This document shows positions 13,868 through 20,773 of a stretch of 64,000 bases of DNA, one piece after another; within the stretch, counting starts at the first letter, position 1, and each line of letters starts with the position of its first letter. The stretch comes from Caldisericum exile AZM16c01 (GTDB lineage: Bacteria > Caldisericota > Caldisericia > Caldisericales > Caldisericaceae). The notes below the pieces were generated by a model, which did not search any database, was not told the DNA's origin, and saw nothing but the letters and a program-made list of their open reading frames with translations. Location: assembly GCF_000284335.1 (NCBI RefSeq), contig NC_017096.1, positions 992,001 to 1,056,000 of the forward strand. Reading direction: 5' to 3'. Position numbers and translations under genes: made by a program.

Positions 13868-13872
13868 GCAAT
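13854..13872 (-). pseudogene. Stranded 3' end of the metallopeptidase gene
   Basis: Joining this fragment to base 20412 (dropping one GCAAT copy) continues the metallopeptidase frame as Arg-Leu-Leu-Gly-Ile-Tyr-stop, with the stop at 13856-13854. It is the last few codons of the gene now at 20390-20773, cut off by the 6.5-kb insertion. Confidence 0.85.
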
Positions 13873-15367
13873 CGAATTGCCTCATCAAAAATCTATATGA
13901 AATTGAATCGTTGCCTCATATAAAAATCTATTCAAAAATGGAAATGGAGGTAAAATAATGAAAAAAGTAGAAGAAGTTCTAAAGAAACTGAAAGAAGGAG
14001 GCTTTATGAGTCTATCCTTGAAAGAGAGAAAGGCTGTGATAAGAGAAGAGGCAGCGATATACAAGAAGTTAACGAAGAAAGAGAAAAGCAGGATGCTTGA
14101 TGAATTTGTGAAACTCACAGGATACTCAAGATGTTATGCATCATATGTATTGAGAACATATGGAAGTAAAGTTGTTGTTGATTTAGAAAATGGAAAAAGA
14201 ACTGTATTCATAGGCGATGATCTGTATAGTGGTAAAGGACTTAAGATAAGGAAGAGAAAAAGGGAAAGGGTATACGGTGAAGAAGTCTTCAATGCCCTTG
14301 TATATCTATGGAAGATGTCGGATTACCTATGTGGGAAAAGACTGAATGTGTATATGAAAGAAATAATACCTATCTTAGAGAACTTTAATGAGTTCCCTTA
14401 CTCTAAAGAGATAAAAGAAAAGTTGCTTTCAATAAGTCCTGCTACAATAGATAGGTTGCTTAAGAAAGAAAAGGATAAGTTTAAGTTAAAGATGAAAGGA
14501 AAAACACTAACTAAACCTGGGACTCTATTAAAGCATAGCATTCCGATAAGGACATTCTCTGAATGGAATGAGAAAGAGCCAGGCTTTGTTGAAGTAGACC
14601 TTGTTGGTCATGATGGAGGTAATCTAAGAGGAGAATTTCTCTATTCCCTTGATGTGACTGACATACATACTGGATGGACAGAAACAAAGGCAATAAAAAA
14701 CAAAGCACAGATATGGACATTCAATGCATTAAAGGAGATTGGGAAGAGATTCCCTTTTTCAATAAAAGGTATTGATTCAGATAATGGAAGTGAATTCATC
14801 AATGCACATCTATTGAATTATTGTGAAAAAGAGCATATCACATTTACAAGGGCAAGACCTTATAGAAAGAATGATAATTGCTTTGTGGAACAGAAGAACT
14901 ATTCTGTGGTAAGAAGGGCTGTAGGTTACATAAGGTATGATACGGATGAGGAACTGAAGATAATGAATGAACTCTACAATACATTGAGGCTCTATACGAA
15001 CTTTTTCTTACCTTCAATGAAACTAAAAGAGAAAACAAGAATTGGGAGTAAGGTATTAAAGAAGTACGACAAACCCAAGACACCCTATCAAAGGATTCTT
15101 GAATGTGAGTTAGTATCTGAAGAAATAAAGAAGAATCTCAGGAGAATGTATGAAACACTAAATCCTCTTTTACTTAAAAGAGACTTAGATAAAATCTCAA
15201 AAGAACTTTCAAAAGCATATGATAAAAAGATAAGGAAAATGGAAAGGAAAGAGAAAGAAGAGAGAAAATCATATACTGATTTTCCTTTGACTCAGAATAA
15301 TTTCATATATAATTTAGATGAGGCAACCAGATAATATTTCATATAGAAAATTATGTGAGGCAACACG
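13873..15367 (+). mobile_element. Insertion sequence, copy 1 (intact)
   Basis: 1495 bp with imperfect terminal inverted repeats: the left end CGAATTGCCTCA matches the complement of the right end as CGTGTTGCCTCA, and both continue to a shared TCTATATGAAAT. Each end has a second inner TTGCCTCA copy (left spacing 34, right spacing 37 bases), probably paired transposase sites. It encodes one transposase in a single frame. The 5-base target repeat is inferred from the pair of copies, not from this copy alone. Confidence 0.9.
13958..15334 (+). CDS. DDE transposase (rve-type integrase core)
   Basis: 458 aa. The N-terminal part (residues 1-130) is Lys-rich and helical, likely DNA-binding (LTGYSRCYASYVLRTYG resembles a helix-turn-helix). 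The retroviral-integrase-like core shows Asp214 (VEVDLVGHDGG), Asp275 (SDNGSEF) and Glu311 (FVEQKN), with the classic 35-residue gap between the last two. GGAGGT precedes the ATG. It resembles transposases filed among the unclassified or ISDol1-like elements, but I cannot fix the family. Its near copy at 19043 is broken, so this copy is the possible source of activity for both. Confidence 0.9.
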   Translation: MKKVEEVLKKLKEGGFMSLSLKERKAVIREEAAIYKKLTKKEKSRMLDEFVKLTGYSRCYASYVLRTYGSKVVVDLENGKRTVFIGDDLYSGKGLKIRKRKRERVYGEEVFNALVYLWKMSDYLCGKRLNVYMKEIIPILENFNEFPYSKEIKEKLLSISPATIDRLLKKEKDKFKLKMKGKTLTKPGTLLKHSIPIRTFSEWNEKEPGFVEVDLVGHDGGNLRGEFLYSLDVTDIHTGWTETKAIKNKAQIWTFNALKEIGKRFPFSIKGIDSDNGSEFINAHLLNYCEKEHITFTRARPYRKNDNCFVEQKNYSVVRRAVGYIRYDTDEELKIMNELYNTLRLYTNFFLPSMKLKEKTRIGSKVLKKYDKPKTPYQRILECELVSEEIKKNLRRMYETLNPLLLKRDLDKISKELSKAYDKKIRKMERKEKEERKSYTDFPLTQNNFIYNLDEATR

Positions 15368-15911
15368 GTTTTGAGGCATTTTTTTCACATTTTAGCCTGA
15401 TTTAAATGTGTGGTGCAAGTTTGGTTTGTTTTATGTATTTTGAGCATAGTTATCCTGTCTTTAATGTTTTGGAGAGGAAAACTCTTTTTAATATGTGCTT
15501 AAATTTATTCCTCTGTAACCTGTGTCCTTCTTAAGCGGGTTCTATATAAAGCCTATGTCTTAGCAACAAAAATACAAGGAGAATTTGGAGATTTACTTCA
15601 TTTAGGCAAGAGTATTTAGACTTTATTTATATACATTCCTTTCGCATGCTTTTAACAATAGTTTAATCAATTGTTTTTAGTCATGACGGTTGTGCAAATT
15701 TTAAAGTGAATTTCTAAAAATTTTTTCTGATTTAAGTTTTAGGTTTTCCCATTCTTAAAAGAATGTTTAAACTTATAAGTGAGTTTTTAATTAGATAGTT
15801 TCTGCATTCTCAAATATGTGTTATACAATCTGAGGGAGACATTTACCTCCCTTATTATTCCTCATAAATTTAGCAACAAATTCACGAAGAGTAGTTGCAA
15901 ACTTTGCTTTC
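15368..15911. other. Non-coding inner flank of the inserted segment
   Basis: 544 bases between the IS end and the lipoprotein stop. It starts with the GTTTT target copy. I see no convincing gene; a short open stretch on the plus strand (about 15505-15619, ending KIQGEFGDLLHLGKSI) looks protein-like but lacks a start and may be a decayed remnant. A 6-bp hairpin (AGGGAG/CTCCCT, around 15834-15852) lies after the lipoprotein gene but has no T-tract on the minus strand. Confidence 0.5.
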
Positions 15912-15922
15912 TTAACCTCCAT
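15821..15922 (-). CDS. Possible 33-aa small protein after the lipoprotein gene
   Basis: A short frame starting at an ATG that overlaps the lipoprotein stop by 11 bases and encoding a basic peptide (MEVKKAKFATTLREFVAKFM ... CLPQIV). There is no clear ribosome-binding site. It might be a real coupled small gene, a remnant of a longer gene, or chance. Low certainty. Confidence 0.25.
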   Translation of the reverse strand: MEVKKAKFATTLREFVAKFMRNNKGGKCLPQIV

Positions 15923-17198
15923 TTTTATGTGGAAATCGAACAAAATTTTCAAAGATGAAAAAGCCTTTAATATAGGACTCTCCGTTAACATTATAAAGTT
16001 TGCTAATATTTTTTATTAGTTTATCGGTTTCTACTTTTGATAACTCCTTTCCATTCCTGTCTCTTACAACGATGAATTTGGGCTCAAGAGAACTCCACTC
16101 CAGTATCGAAGCAATCTCATTTGTTTTAGTGTTAAACGCTATCCAGAGGTGTCTGTAATTTTCTGATAGAGTTTCGTCTTTAGTTTTCTCTCCGTAATCT
16201 ACAGTGCCATTAAGAATAAGAAAGTCCTTATACTCACCCGGAATTGCTGGGTATCCACCACAATAAATCGGGGCATTATAAAAAGATAAAGATTTAAATA
16301 TTTCTTGCTGATCGAAAAGTTTACAAGTATAATCATCTGGATTTATAACGCCGATATAACAACCACACAAAGGAACATAGAATTTACCTTCAATAATTGA
16401 TACCTCTGATTGGTTCATATATGGAATGCATCCTTTAAGGCCAGTTACTTCATTCCACTCATATGTGCCTTTCTCTAAATTAATCGTACAGATAAGAAAA
16501 TGTCCCATTCCTACACTATCATAATAGAGAAGAAGTTGTTTGACCTCATTCTTATCCTTCTCATAAAGACAGGCCTCTCCTATATCGACACCTCCATGAA
16601 ATACATCGTTATAGAGGGAGATTTTAATTTCTTTTTCTATAAGTTTTTTTCCATTGTTATCAAACACTCGATAAGTAAAATCGCTATATTTCTCCTTTAG
16701 ATAGTTGATACCTCCAACATTTTTCATTTGCACCTGAAGATTCTGTGAATAATTAAAGAGGTCATAATCTTTAATTACCTTGCCAGAAGCGAATTTAGCA
16801 GAATCTATTGGATCATCAAACATTGTGATTTTGAAATTGAAGGAGTTTTTTACATTATGATATTGACTTGAAAGATAAATGTAGCTTTCCCCATCCCAGG
16901 ATAAAGGAGGACCAAAATAGTGAACCGGCATGCTCCAATCCCAAACTCCAGGTTTATCAGTACGGTTTGGTTGAGCTTTAACTATATACAGAACCTTGTT
17001 TGTCTGTAAAATCTTTCCATTTGCGATATCCCAGTAATTTAGATATGCCTCAACATAACCTGCTTTTTGATTAACTGAGAATGTTAAAAATGGGATGGAA
17101 CTCTCGGAGGGTGCCTCTATCTTATTATTGCACCCAGAAGTAGATACAAACAAAACGAGCAAAATTAAAAACAGAATAATTGTCTTTCTTGTCATCAT
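15912..17198 (-). CDS. Predicted surface lipoprotein of unknown function
   Basis: 428 aa from ATG 17198, which overlaps the amidase stop as ATGA; the TTG start at 17216 would spoil the signal peptide. The N-terminus (MMTRKTIILFLILLVLFVS) followed by TSGC is a lipoprotein signal with Cys near residue 20. The rest is rich in short beta-like stretches (WDGESYIYLSSQYH, GKFYVPLCGCYIGVINPDD, SENYRHLWIAF), which could form a beta-propeller-like fold; I recognise no family. Co-transcribed with the amidase, so it probably acts with it at the cell surface. Confidence 0.65.
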   Translation of the reverse strand: MMTRKTIILFLILLVLFVSTSGCNNKIEAPSESSIPFLTFSVNQKAGYVEAYLNYWDIANGKILQTNKVLYIVKAQPNRTDKPGVWDWSMPVHYFGPPLSWDGESYIYLSSQYHNVKNSFNFKITMFDDPIDSAKFASGKVIKDYDLFNYSQNLQVQMKNVGGINYLKEKYSDFTYRVFDNNGKKLIEKEIKISLYNDVFHGGVDIGEACLYEKDKNEVKQLLLYYDSVGMGHFLICTINLEKGTYEWNEVTGLKGCIPYMNQSEVSIIEGKFYVPLCGCYIGVINPDDYTCKLFDQQEIFKSLSFYNAPIYCGGYPAIPGEYKDFLILNGTVDYGEKTKDETLSENYRHLWIAFNTKTNEIASILEWSSLEPKFIVVRDRNGKELSKVETDKLIKNISKLYNVNGESYIKGFFIFENFVRFPHKNGG

Positions 17199-18475
17199 GG
17201 TGTAAATCTCCAGCAACTAACTTTATAAAGATATTTGCTTGATGAATCGTAGTAGTGGTTTTTCACGTCATTTGTGTGCGCTGCAAAATAGTTATAATAG
17301 ATTCCATAATAACCATAGGAGTAATCATCCATGGCAACGTGATACCTTTCAATTTGGCCATATTGATTATAACGCCAAAATACAGCTACATCTCCAATAT
17401 CTAAGCTATTATATGAGCATGAAGACCAATCACCTCTACTTACCATATAGTCTGTAAGGTCGGGAACAAAAGTCCAACACCACTTACCACCAAATCCTGT
17501 TTTTCTAATTGAAGGGTTCCAATAATTATCTATAGCCATTCCACCGTAATACATTGCCTGGGAAACAAAGTCAGCGCAATTATTACAAGCTAACTGTTCA
17601 TAGTAGCCATTAGAATACTTCGTCAAAGGGTATTGTGAATTGTTCCAATAACTCATATCTGTATATTGAGAAACTACTGGTGTATTGTTTATCCAGCAAG
17701 TAATAGTTTTACTCTGAAGAGCTTCACTCGTATACAGGTCAGCATAATTTTTAGCATTAGTTCTGTTGTAAAGATTCTGATAAACACTATTGGGAGAAAT
17801 TGGATTTGCAGAAACATTTGACGAATATAATTTCTCAATTAAACCCTTAATTTCAGTGTAACCTCTCTTCTCCTCTACGTCGTATGTGAATGTAGAAGAA
17901 ACAAATGAATTGTTTGTATCTTCCCATCTTGCCTCCCCTTTAACAGAAACATCATAGAAAATCTTTACACTGTTTTTATCGATTGTTCCTTCAGACGTAA
18001 TACCACATACAACCTTAAAAGTCCCATTTTCTTCATGCAATTTACTAACCATGTCTTTTAATGCATCGTATTTTTCTTTAATTGCTAATTCCACAGTTTT
18101 AATTTGAGCGGGAGTAAGTTTTGTTTTATTTTCATTCAGATACCTTTGCATACCTTTTAAGAAAGGAGATTGTGATGCTTCTTCTAATGTTGCTTTTGGA
18201 ATCATTGTTGCTTTTACATAAAAAACTGCTTCAGCCTTTCCATCTCCAATTTTTACAGGTTGAATATCATTCGCCTGAGAAACATTGACGGTTATGTTTT
18301 TAAAACTAGTTGAACGAACCCCATAGTACCACTCCTTTAGAACATTTGAAAGTTCTGTGACAATCAAATCCTGTTTCACTCCTTCCTGCCCACTTGTATG
18401 CACAATCTTTAAAGTTGAAAAAATGCAAACTAAAACAATAAAAACAGTCAAAAACATTCTAAACTTCGTATTCAT
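17195..18475 (-). CDS. Secreted protein with C-terminal Amidase_6 domain
   Basis: 426 aa with an N-terminal signal segment (MFLTVFIVLVCIFSTLKIV), a variable middle domain, and a C-terminal domain from about residue 240 (YNRTNAKNYADLYTSE) that matches the putative amidase domain Amidase_6. The candidate catalytic Cys is in NNCADFVSQAMYYGG and the His in RYHVAMDD; GDVAVFW lies between them as in NlpC/CHAP-like folds. The likely role is cleaving or modifying peptidoglycan or a surface peptide. AAAGGAGG precedes the ATG. The family is best known from Gram-positive bacteria, fitting acquisition with the mobile unit. Confidence 0.8.
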   Translation of the reverse strand: MNTKFRMFLTVFIVLVCIFSTLKIVHTSGQEGVKQDLIVTELSNVLKEWYYGVRSTSFKNITVNVSQANDIQPVKIGDGKAEAVFYVKATMIPKATLEEASQSPFLKGMQRYLNENKTKLTPAQIKTVELAIKEKYDALKDMVSKLHEENGTFKVVCGITSEGTIDKNSVKIFYDVSVKGEARWEDTNNSFVSSTFTYDVEEKRGYTEIKGLIEKLYSSNVSANPISPNSVYQNLYNRTNAKNYADLYTSEALQSKTITCWINNTPVVSQYTDMSYWNNSQYPLTKYSNGYYEQLACNNCADFVSQAMYYGGMAIDNYWNPSIRKTGFGGKWCWTFVPDLTDYMVSRGDWSSCSYNSLDIGDVAVFWRYNQYGQIERYHVAMDDYSYGYYGIYYNYFAAHTNDVKNHYYDSSSKYLYKVSCWRFTP

Positions 18476-18570
18476 TTTAACCTCCTTTGTTAAATTTTAC
18501 TTATCTATTACAAACTTCAAAACTTTTTTGCTAAAAGTGTGTTTAAATTCTTTTCTTCTTTTTTCCTCTT

Positions 18571-18700
18571 TTCACCTCCATTTCTTCGGAGCCTTGCCCT
18601 CATTTAAGTGCATCACCTTCCCTTCCGAGGGAGATTCCGCTCCTAACAAATACTCAAGAAAATATTGAAACTATTTCTCTTGAGTTCTCTCTCCCTCAAA
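18571..18700 (-). promoter_or_regulatory. Structured leader upstream of the amidase gene
   Basis: Minus-strand pairings: GAGGGAGA (18697-18690) with TCTCCCTC (18634-18627), enclosing a perfect ACTCAAG/CTTGAGT hairpin (18685-18679 with 18658-18652). GGAGC (18643-18639) inside that loop can pair with GCTCC (18592-18588) outside it, a pseudoknot-like contact. A competing TCCCT/AGGGA hairpin uses the same 3' strand. It could be a riboswitch-like or attenuator RNA; I could not match it to a known class. Confidence 0.4.
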
Positions 18701-18731
18701 TCTATAATTTTTCTTCCACTATATTTTATCG

Positions 18732-18758
18732 TCTCTCTCTCTCTCTCTCTCTCTCTCT
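18732..18758. repeat. (TC)13 dinucleotide tract upstream of the amidase gene
   Basis: 27 bases of uninterrupted TC repeat (GA on the coding strand of the amidase). It sits just upstream of the leader and of AT-rich candidate -10 sequences (TAAAAT, TATAGA), so slippage could change promoter spacing. The rest of 18476-18957 holds the leader and AT-rich DNA without a gene. Confidence 0.9.
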
Positions 18759-18957
18759 TGTCAATACCTTTTAAGAGGATTTCAGAAAATCTGCATAAAT
18801 TTTGTAAAATTTTTCCTCTCATATAATAGATACAAAAACCTTGAAAAAAGTTCCGTGAATTTGAAGAAAAACGGAAAGAATTTTTAACAACCTAAATTGA
18901 ACTATTTTTTATCACTCTAAAAAATTTTAGTACTTTTTTGAAAAATTTGAAAGTTTT

Positions 18958-20406
18958 CGAATTGCCTCATCAAAAATCTATATGAAATTGAATCGTTGCC
19001 TCATATAAAAATCTATTCAAAAATGGAAATGGAGGTAAAATAATGAAAAAAGTAGAAGAAGTTCTAAAGAAACTGAAAGAAGGAGGCTTTATGATTCTAT
19101 CCCTGAAAGAGAGAAAGGCTGTGATAAAAGAGGAGGCAGCGATATACCAAAAGGTAACGAAGAAAGAGAAAAGCAGGATGCTTGATGAATTTGTGAAACT
19201 CACAGGATACTCAAGATGTTATGCATCATATGTATTGAGAACATATGGAAGTAAAGTTGTTGTTGATTTAGAAAATGGAAAAAGAACTGTATTCATAGGC
19301 GATGATCTGTATAGTGGTAAAGGACTTAAGATAAGGAAGAGAAAAAGGGAAAGGGTATACGGTGAAGAAGTCTTCGATGCCCTTGTATATCTATGGAAGA
19401 TGTCGGATTACCTATGTGGGAAAAGACTGAATGTGTATATGAAAGAAATAATACCTATCTTAGAGAACTTTAATGAGTTCCCTTACTCTAAAGAGATAAA
19501 AGAAAAGTTGCTTTCAATAAGTCCTGCTACAAGAGATTGTTGCTTAAGAAAGAAAAGGATAAGTTTAAGTTAAAGATGAAAGGAAAAACACTAACTAAAC
19601 CTGGGACTCTATTAAAGCATAGCATTCCGATAAGGACATTCTCTGAATGGAATGAGAAAGAGCCAGGCTTTGTTGAAGTAGACCTTGCATGGCACAATGG
19701 AGGTAATCTAAGAGGAGAATTTCTCTATTCCCTTGATGTGACTGACATACATACTGGATGGACAGAAACAAAGGCAATAACCTGTTGAAAAAGAGCACAG
19801 GTTACAAAAGATTAAAAAAACAAAGCACAGATATGGACATTCAATGCATTAAAGGAAATTGGGAAGAGATTCCCTTTTTCAATAAAAGGTATTGATTCAG
19901 ATAATGGAAGTGAATTCATCAATGCACATCTATTGAATTATTGTGAAAAAGAGCATATCACATTTACAAGGGCAAGACCTTATAGAAAGAATGATAATTG
20001 CTTTGTGGAACAGAAGAACTATTCTGTGGTAAGAAGGGCTGTAGGATACATAAGGTATGATACGGATGAGGAACTGAAGATAATGAATGAACTCTACAAT
20101 ACATTGAGGCTCTATACGAACTTTTTCTTACCTTCAATGAAACTAAAAGAGAAAACAAGAATTGGGAGTAAGGTATTAAAGAAGTACGACAAACCCAAGA
20201 CACCCTATCAAAGGATTCTTTAATGTGAGTTAGTATCTGAAGAAATAAAGAAGAATCTCAGGAGAATGTATGAAACACTAAATCCTCTTTTACTTAAAAG
20301 AGACTTAGATATACTGATTTTTCCTTTGACTCAGAATAATTTCATATATAATTTAGATGAGGCAACCAGATAATATTTCATATAGAAAATTACGTGAGGC
20401 AACACG
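18958..20406 (+). mobile_element. Insertion sequence, copy 2 (decayed)
   Basis: 1449 bp, almost identical to copy 1 over most of its length, with the same ends (doubled TTGCCTCA motif at each end, left at 18962 and 18996, right at 20358 and 20395). It differs by a 1-base deletion, a 36-base insertion with an inverted repeat, a nonsense change and an 82-base deletion. Both ends are intact, so it could still be moved by the copy 1 transposase. Confidence 0.9.
19043..20373 (+). pseudogene. Broken copy of the DDE transposase
   Basis: Frameshifted after about residue 165 (one base missing near 19535), interrupted by a 36-base insertion near 19779-19815, stopped by TAA at 20221-20223 where copy 1 has GAA, and missing 82 bases near 20310. 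The three remaining open pieces (19043-19573, 19537-19788, 19933-20223) match copy 1 closely, and the catalytic Asp and Glu codons are still readable. Cannot make a working transposase. Confidence 0.93.
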
Positions 20407-20773
20407 GCAATCTTAGGTCATCCTCTCCCATCCCAAAATAATGACCAATTTCATGAAGCACAACTTTTCTTATCTTTTCCTCAACTGGAATACGCTCCAA
20501 ATTTGCAAAATAAATAATAGGTTGCATAAATATGTAAATTCTGTCTGGCAAGACCCAGTTATAATTTGCTCCTCTTTTATTTAAAGGAACGCCAACATAA
20601 AGTCCAAGAAGAGTCTGATTTTTAAGTCCATTACTTTCAAGAAAATCTTCTGTCGGATAATCTAAAATGATAAACTCCAAATTTTGTATCTTATCTTTGA
20701 GGTCTTTTGGTAGGTTTGATATCGTTTTATCAATTACATCTCTAAAAAATTCTAAAATTTCGTCCACTTTCAC
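20390..20773 (-). CDS. Minimal zinc metallopeptidase, C-terminus rewritten by IS insertion
   Basis: 127 aa with HEIGHYFGMGEDD (HExxHxxGxxxxD, about residues 107-119), the signature of the small metallopeptidase family formerly called DUF1025. The last residues Pro-Cys-Cys-Leu-Thr and the stop come from the IS end; the original ending Leu-Gly-Ile-Tyr lies at 13854-13867. Catalytic residues are all upstream of the change, so the protein may still work. The start is GTG 20773 or GTG 20767; there is no ribosome-binding site and a TATAAT directly precedes, suggesting a leaderless mRNA. Confidence 0.8.
   Translation of the reverse strand: MKVDEILEFFRDVIDKTISNLPKDLKDKIQNLEFIILDYPTEDFLESNGLKNQTLLGLYVGVPLNKRGANYNWVLPDRIYIFMQPIIYFANLERIPVEEKIRKVVLHEIGHYFGMGEDDLRLPCCLT

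Follow-up and report, generated by a model that had tools for sequence, protein, structure and literature searches.

The closest described systems are the mobile units formed by IS26, for which translocatable units, pseudo-compound transposons and targeted conservative cointegrates have been described (PMC7885326, PMC11102541). The end-to-end exchange of IS26 yields a product that equals the product of homologous recombination (PMC7885326). In P. fluorescens SBW25, duplications are driven by IS repeats and involve an IS481 at a REP cluster (PMC11708052). Circles, dimers and cointegrates are described for IS30 (PMC9333248).

The locus analyzed here resembles IS26 units in that a circle with one IS and cargo may be involved, the cargo lies between two direct ISs in the product, and an exchange between ISs without a new duplication is possible. 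However, IS26 belongs to the IS6 family and has 8-bp repeats, whereas the present IS is ISNCY/IS481-like with 5-bp repeats, and one of the two partners is dead. Furthermore, the circle or tandem would have formed here from repeats of the host, named R, and not from two ISs. As in the SBW25 case, an IS481-type element is located inside a dispersed repeat, at a head-to-tail duplication junction. In SBW25, the new IS lies without a target repeat between 60-kb tandem copies, whereas the unit described here moved to a distant site and has ordered target repeats. A possible circular intermediate and a cointegrate-like structure are features in common with IS30, but there is no IS-IS junction at the present locus.

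The window, which is the whole stretch of 64,000 nucleotides that was analyzed, corresponds to positions 992001-1056000 of the single-contig genome of Caldisericum exile AZM16c01 (1,558,103 bases). It contains an IS-bounded unit, recognized by two direct IS copies around cargo, an outer target repeat, and an empty site in relatives (Table 1).

Table 1. Features of the IS-bounded unit and of the gene at its right border; positions are those of the window.
Feature	Position	Strand	Remarks
Left outer GCAAT target repeat of the whole unit	13868..13872	n/a	Abuts left end of IS copy 1
IS copy 1, intact, 1495 bp	13873..15367	+	Ends CGAATTGCCTCA / TGAGGCAACACG
Intact 458-aa transposase of copy 1, rve core	13958..15334	+	IS481 model below cut-off; nearest annotated plasmid relatives ISNCY / ISLbi1-like
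GTTTT target repeat of the mobilized IS, right of copy 1	15368..15372		Abuts IS end
Repeat R, right part, R2/R1 chimera	15368..15606	+	Marker comparison with parent R1 and R2
434-aa putative lipoprotein, no family	15912..17216	-	Protein 100% identical to parent copy
426-aa putative secreted protein, no family	17195..18475	-	Protein 100% identical to parent copy
Repeat R, left part, R2 type, with GTTTT at its end	18891..18957	+	
GTTTT target repeat of the mobilized IS, left of copy 2	18953..18957		Abuts IS end
IS copy 2, decayed, 1449 bp	18958..20406	+	100% identical to IS at genome 131448-132896
Right outer GCAAT target repeat	20407..20411		Abuts end of IS copy 2
Zincin_1 metallopeptidase gene, last codons replaced by insertion	20390..20773	-	

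The flanks are arranged as GCAAT-IS-GTTTT around copy 1 and GTTTT-IS-GCAAT around copy 2, with both ISs on the plus strand. A previous reading of the sequence alone (hereafter the sequence-only reading) had reported these swapped 5-mers and their exact abutment at every IS end, and its coordinates were reproduced exactly. It had also held that a simple insertion gives matching flanks, which agrees with the other copies. Elsewhere in the genome there are two further full-length copies, one bordered by matched GTGCT/GTGCT (961075-962569) and the other by matched GTTTT/GTTTT (131448-132896). A related IS in Treponema parvum, with ends CGCATTGCCTCA similar to those of the present IS, has matched 5-bp target repeats in all seven near-identical copies that were compared (loci L163-L168 and L170). 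Since the repeats of these control copies are matched, the swap in the window is a departure from the norm and not noise. The copy at 961 kb is a third near-intact IS, the transposase of which has an in-frame TAG (TGG to TAG).

When the flanks of the unit are joined with one GCAAT, collinearity with congener G002 extends over 2.25 kb, and with congeners G001 and G004 over ~1.45 kb, with no gap at the junction. The search for an empty site that the sequence-only reading had proposed was thus successful in three congeners, and that reading withstood its own refuting condition of an empty site lacking a single GCAAT. The gap-free empty site indicates that a single net insertion, at a site with one GCAAT, brought in the whole 6.5-kb unit. 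The same joining restores the C-terminus of the Zincin_1 protein to GMGEDDLRLLGIY, with GMGEDNLRRLGVY and GLGEEDLRRLGVY in the relatives; the native protein end is DDLRLLGIY, and the end with the insertion is DDLRLPCCLT*. No genome was found in the intermediate state, with only a resident IS at this site.

IS copy 1 has the ends CGAATTGCCTCA and TGAGGCAACACG, and a second TTGCCTCA motif is positioned internal to each end. The transposase is ~42% identical, over 88% of its length, to an annotated ISLbi1 family transposase, as is characteristic of the ISNCY / ISLbi1-like group. Its score of 50.6 bits against the NCBIfam IS481 model is below the cut-off of 224 for membership of the IS481 family. 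The IS shares with the IS1202 family the length of ~1.5 kb, a transposase of ~450 aa, the 5-bp target repeats, and the second motif inside each end (PMC10132070). However, the outer ends of IS1202 are TGT/ACA, whereas those of the present IS are CG../..CG. The element is best classed as ISNCY, ISLbi1-like. No solved structural relative of the transposase was found.

At 131-136 kb, on the other strand of the same chromosome, one block corresponds to the inner segment (3590 bp) together with the complete copy 2. In this parent locus the IS (131448-132896) interrupts R2, one of two ~300-bp direct repeats, and is bordered by matched GTTTT. The other repeat, R1, is at the opposite side of the gene pair and does not contain an IS. 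R1 spans positions 136258-136556 and R2 positions 131208-132963, on the minus strand (L021, genome 126000-142000). Aside from the R region, the parent and window blocks differ by two SNPs and a 10-bp change in a TC repeat. This TC microsatellite, at positions 18731-18758 of the window, is five units shorter than in the parent copy. As judged by comparison of the two loci, the cargo is a two-gene piece of the organism's own chromosome, copied 870 kb away between two IS copies, and the parent stayed in place. The sequence-only reading had pointed to a small IS-carrying replicon. This origin was rejected, because the parent is on the same chromosome, neither plasmids nor viral contigs gave a match to the 426-aa protein, and the two inner ORFs have no match to any replication family. 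No defense role was found for the inner genes.

The history of the unit is recorded in the repeat R to the right of copy 1. The DNA at this position begins as R2, because it is preceded by the right end of the IS and GTTTT, and it must finish as R1, because it continues into the gene pair. The markers at 15442, 15447, 15460, and 15464 are those of R2, whereas the markers at 15472, 15563, and 15564 are those of R1. There is one R2-to-R1 switch, mapped to the 7 bp between 15465 and 15471. The order of the markers, R2 and then R1, indicates that the unit went through an R1 x R2 head-to-tail junction. Equal inner flanks, with GTTTT on both sides, together with the chimeric R characterize a head-to-tail intermediate, which is either a circle or a tandem duplication. 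The sequence-only reading had interpreted the inner segment as a former circle. The head-to-tail join across an IS in a GTTTT site is borne out by the chimeric repeat, but the circle is not its unique source, since an identical sequence results if a tandem duplication is mobilized as a composite bounded by ISs. Unequal crossing-over leaves the same junction, and the sequence alone proves no free circle. Taken together, the steps represented by the parent locus and the R1 x R2 junction are held with high confidence.

The whole R1-genes-R2 block of the parent locus is absent from congener G002. When the block is removed and one TGAAA is kept, the flanks align to G002. The block has TGAAA on both outer sides, and R starts with CCTAAAT and finishes with ATTTAGG. 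A ~1.15-kb element at genome ~50.1-51.2 kb (L082:2086-3237) has R-like ends CCTAAATTGAGCGAT / ATCGCTCAGATTAGG and contains remnants of a reading frame. From its sequence, R looks like the joined ends of such a longer ~1.15-kb element, and the element at 50 kb is probably the parent type of the repeat. As a lead only, R (MITE-like) repeats may have bordered an earlier mobile unit that carried the gene pair. The assignment of R to a typed MITE was rejected, as its 1.15-kb relatives gave no transposase family and two other R-like copies have unmatched target repeats. The region at genome 46-80 kb (L082 and L083, with C39-like and Amidase_6 genes) contains many short upstream repeats in common with the DNA flanking the genes of the inner segment. 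Genes of small secreted proteins occur there with IS remnants.

The base-by-base alignment of the two ISs, which the sequence-only reading had recommended, was carried out. Relative to copy 1, copy 2 differs at ~25 single positions, carries a 36-bp insertion, and lacks ~80 bp close to its 3' end; its decay consists of a frameshift, the insertion, and the deletion. All 1449 bp of copy 2 are identical to the parent IS. The first 137 bp of copy 1 equal copy 2, whereas the remaining body is close to the copy at 961 kb. There are 6/137 differences between copy 1 and the 961-kb copy in the 5' part and 2/1358 in the rest (Fisher P = 1.3e-5). It could be that the 961-kb copy is the mosaic, instead of copy 1. 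The grouping depends on few sites: among the polarized sites, two or three in the 5' part place copy 1 with copy 2, and two others place it with the 961-kb copy. Other copies vary at site 47, and site 739 is part of a cluster of changes. At position 1482, which is 14 bp from the right end (position -14), copy 1 has a T, as does the 961-kb copy, whereas the parent IS has a C. A new mutation at this site is unlikely, because only two SNPs have occurred in 5 kb since the two blocks split. The wholly parental copy 2 and the T at -14 of copy 1 imply that if a resident IS was used, the switch between partners was in the last 13-14 bp. One crossover elsewhere within the IS is ruled out by the same two observations.

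In the proposed mechanism, an ISNCY/IS481-like IS inserted into R2 with a GTTTT repeat at 131-136 kb, where the gene pair lies between R1 and R2, as is preserved in the parent locus. Recombination of R1 with R2, in the stretch that equals 15465-15471, then produced a head-to-tail unit of ~5 kb containing the IS and the gene pair, as the chimeric repeat attests. This unit may have been a circle released by excision, or it may have arisen as a tandem duplication on a sister copy; the parent was unmoved. Its subsequent entry into the GCAAT site, where the zincin gene ends, would most likely have been an exchange with an intact resident IS at the right IS termini, whereby the right flanks and their target repeats were swapped. 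The exchange may have started from a cut by the transposase at the IS end and been completed by homologous recombination or by copying from the circle or tandem template. We consider this route through a resident IS to be the best explanation, at little better than even confidence. A random crossover would not typically place the switch in the last 13-14 bp, whereas a reaction directed to the IS end, or a break there, would do so. However, two points count against the exchange: for plain RecA recombination, a tract of 13-14 bp is very short, and the closest longer block of identity (~75 bp) lies beyond the -14 marker, on the wrong side. The 5' part of copy 1 that equals copy 2, next to a body like the 961-kb copy, fits a later gene conversion of copy 1.

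No resident IS is required if the circle (as a cointegrate) or the tandem (as a composite transposon) transposed directly into an IS-free GCAAT site, with the transposase supplied in trans. The GCAAT is then the plain target repeat of the unit. Such an event would give two decayed ISs, of which copy 1 was later gene-converted over ~1345 bp or more by an intact copy resembling the 961-kb one. This accounts for the first 137 bp of copy 1 that equal copy 2, and for the body and the T at -14 that equal the 961-kb copy. However, the additional conversion must have occurred in the short time in which two SNPs accumulated in 5 kb, copy 1 does not have the TAG of the 961-kb copy, the 5' grouping depends on the two or three sites mentioned above, and the other examined copies of the family are simple insertions. 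We regard this history as possible, but rather unlikely. A simple replicative cointegrate of a single IS was rejected as a full account, because a fresh cointegrate would give equal copies, and the intact copy 1 and decayed copy 2 are not identical. Both routes of the sequence-only reading, replicative transposition and recombination with a resident IS, thus need an amendment: the replicative route gives equal ISs and so needs the later gene conversion, and the resident-IS route needs an exchange at the very end of the IS. A targeted conservative reaction of the kind described for IS26 (PMC7885326) would also leave both ISs unaltered, place the switch at one end of the IS, and swap the repeats exactly. 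In this reaction, two IS copies on separate molecules are linked by the transposase at their right ends, and no target repeats are newly formed. By analogy with IS26, transposases of the ISNCY/ISLbi1-like group might join ends in this manner even with one dead partner, and circles born from repeats might dock at resident ISs without general recombination, which is a doubtful generalization. The reaction itself is improbable at this locus, since it is known for IS26 and the present IS is of another family, one partner is dead with a mismatch at -14, and homologous recombination would give the identical product.

The direction of the transfer might also have been the reverse, with a circle leaving the window unit and integrating at 131 kb via R homology. 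The exchange of R1/R2 markers is symmetric, and the whole R1-genes-R2 block at 131 kb is the one missing from G002. However, a matched simple GTTTT insertion within a full R repeat is found at 131 kb only, the window has a single R, permuted at the IS, and the reverse direction offers no explanation for the initial joining of the genes to an IS within a GTTTT site of R. We consider it very improbable. A chance match of the four 5-mers or a misassembly of the repeat is less credible still: the repeat exceeds the length of short reads, but specific differences distinguish the two loci, the empty sites in relatives agree with both outer junctions, and the markers of the chimera are ordered.

The locus clearly documents gene mobilization of an ordinary kind, apart from the unusual exchange point at the IS end. 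No paper on IS movement in the genus Caldisericum was found. The record of an IS-borne gene duplication is unusually complete, as the parent locus, the recombination point to 7 bp, the empty site, and the product are all readable. Host repeats and the IS act together to spread the cargo. The locus raises the testable question of exchange at IS termini outside the IS26 family.
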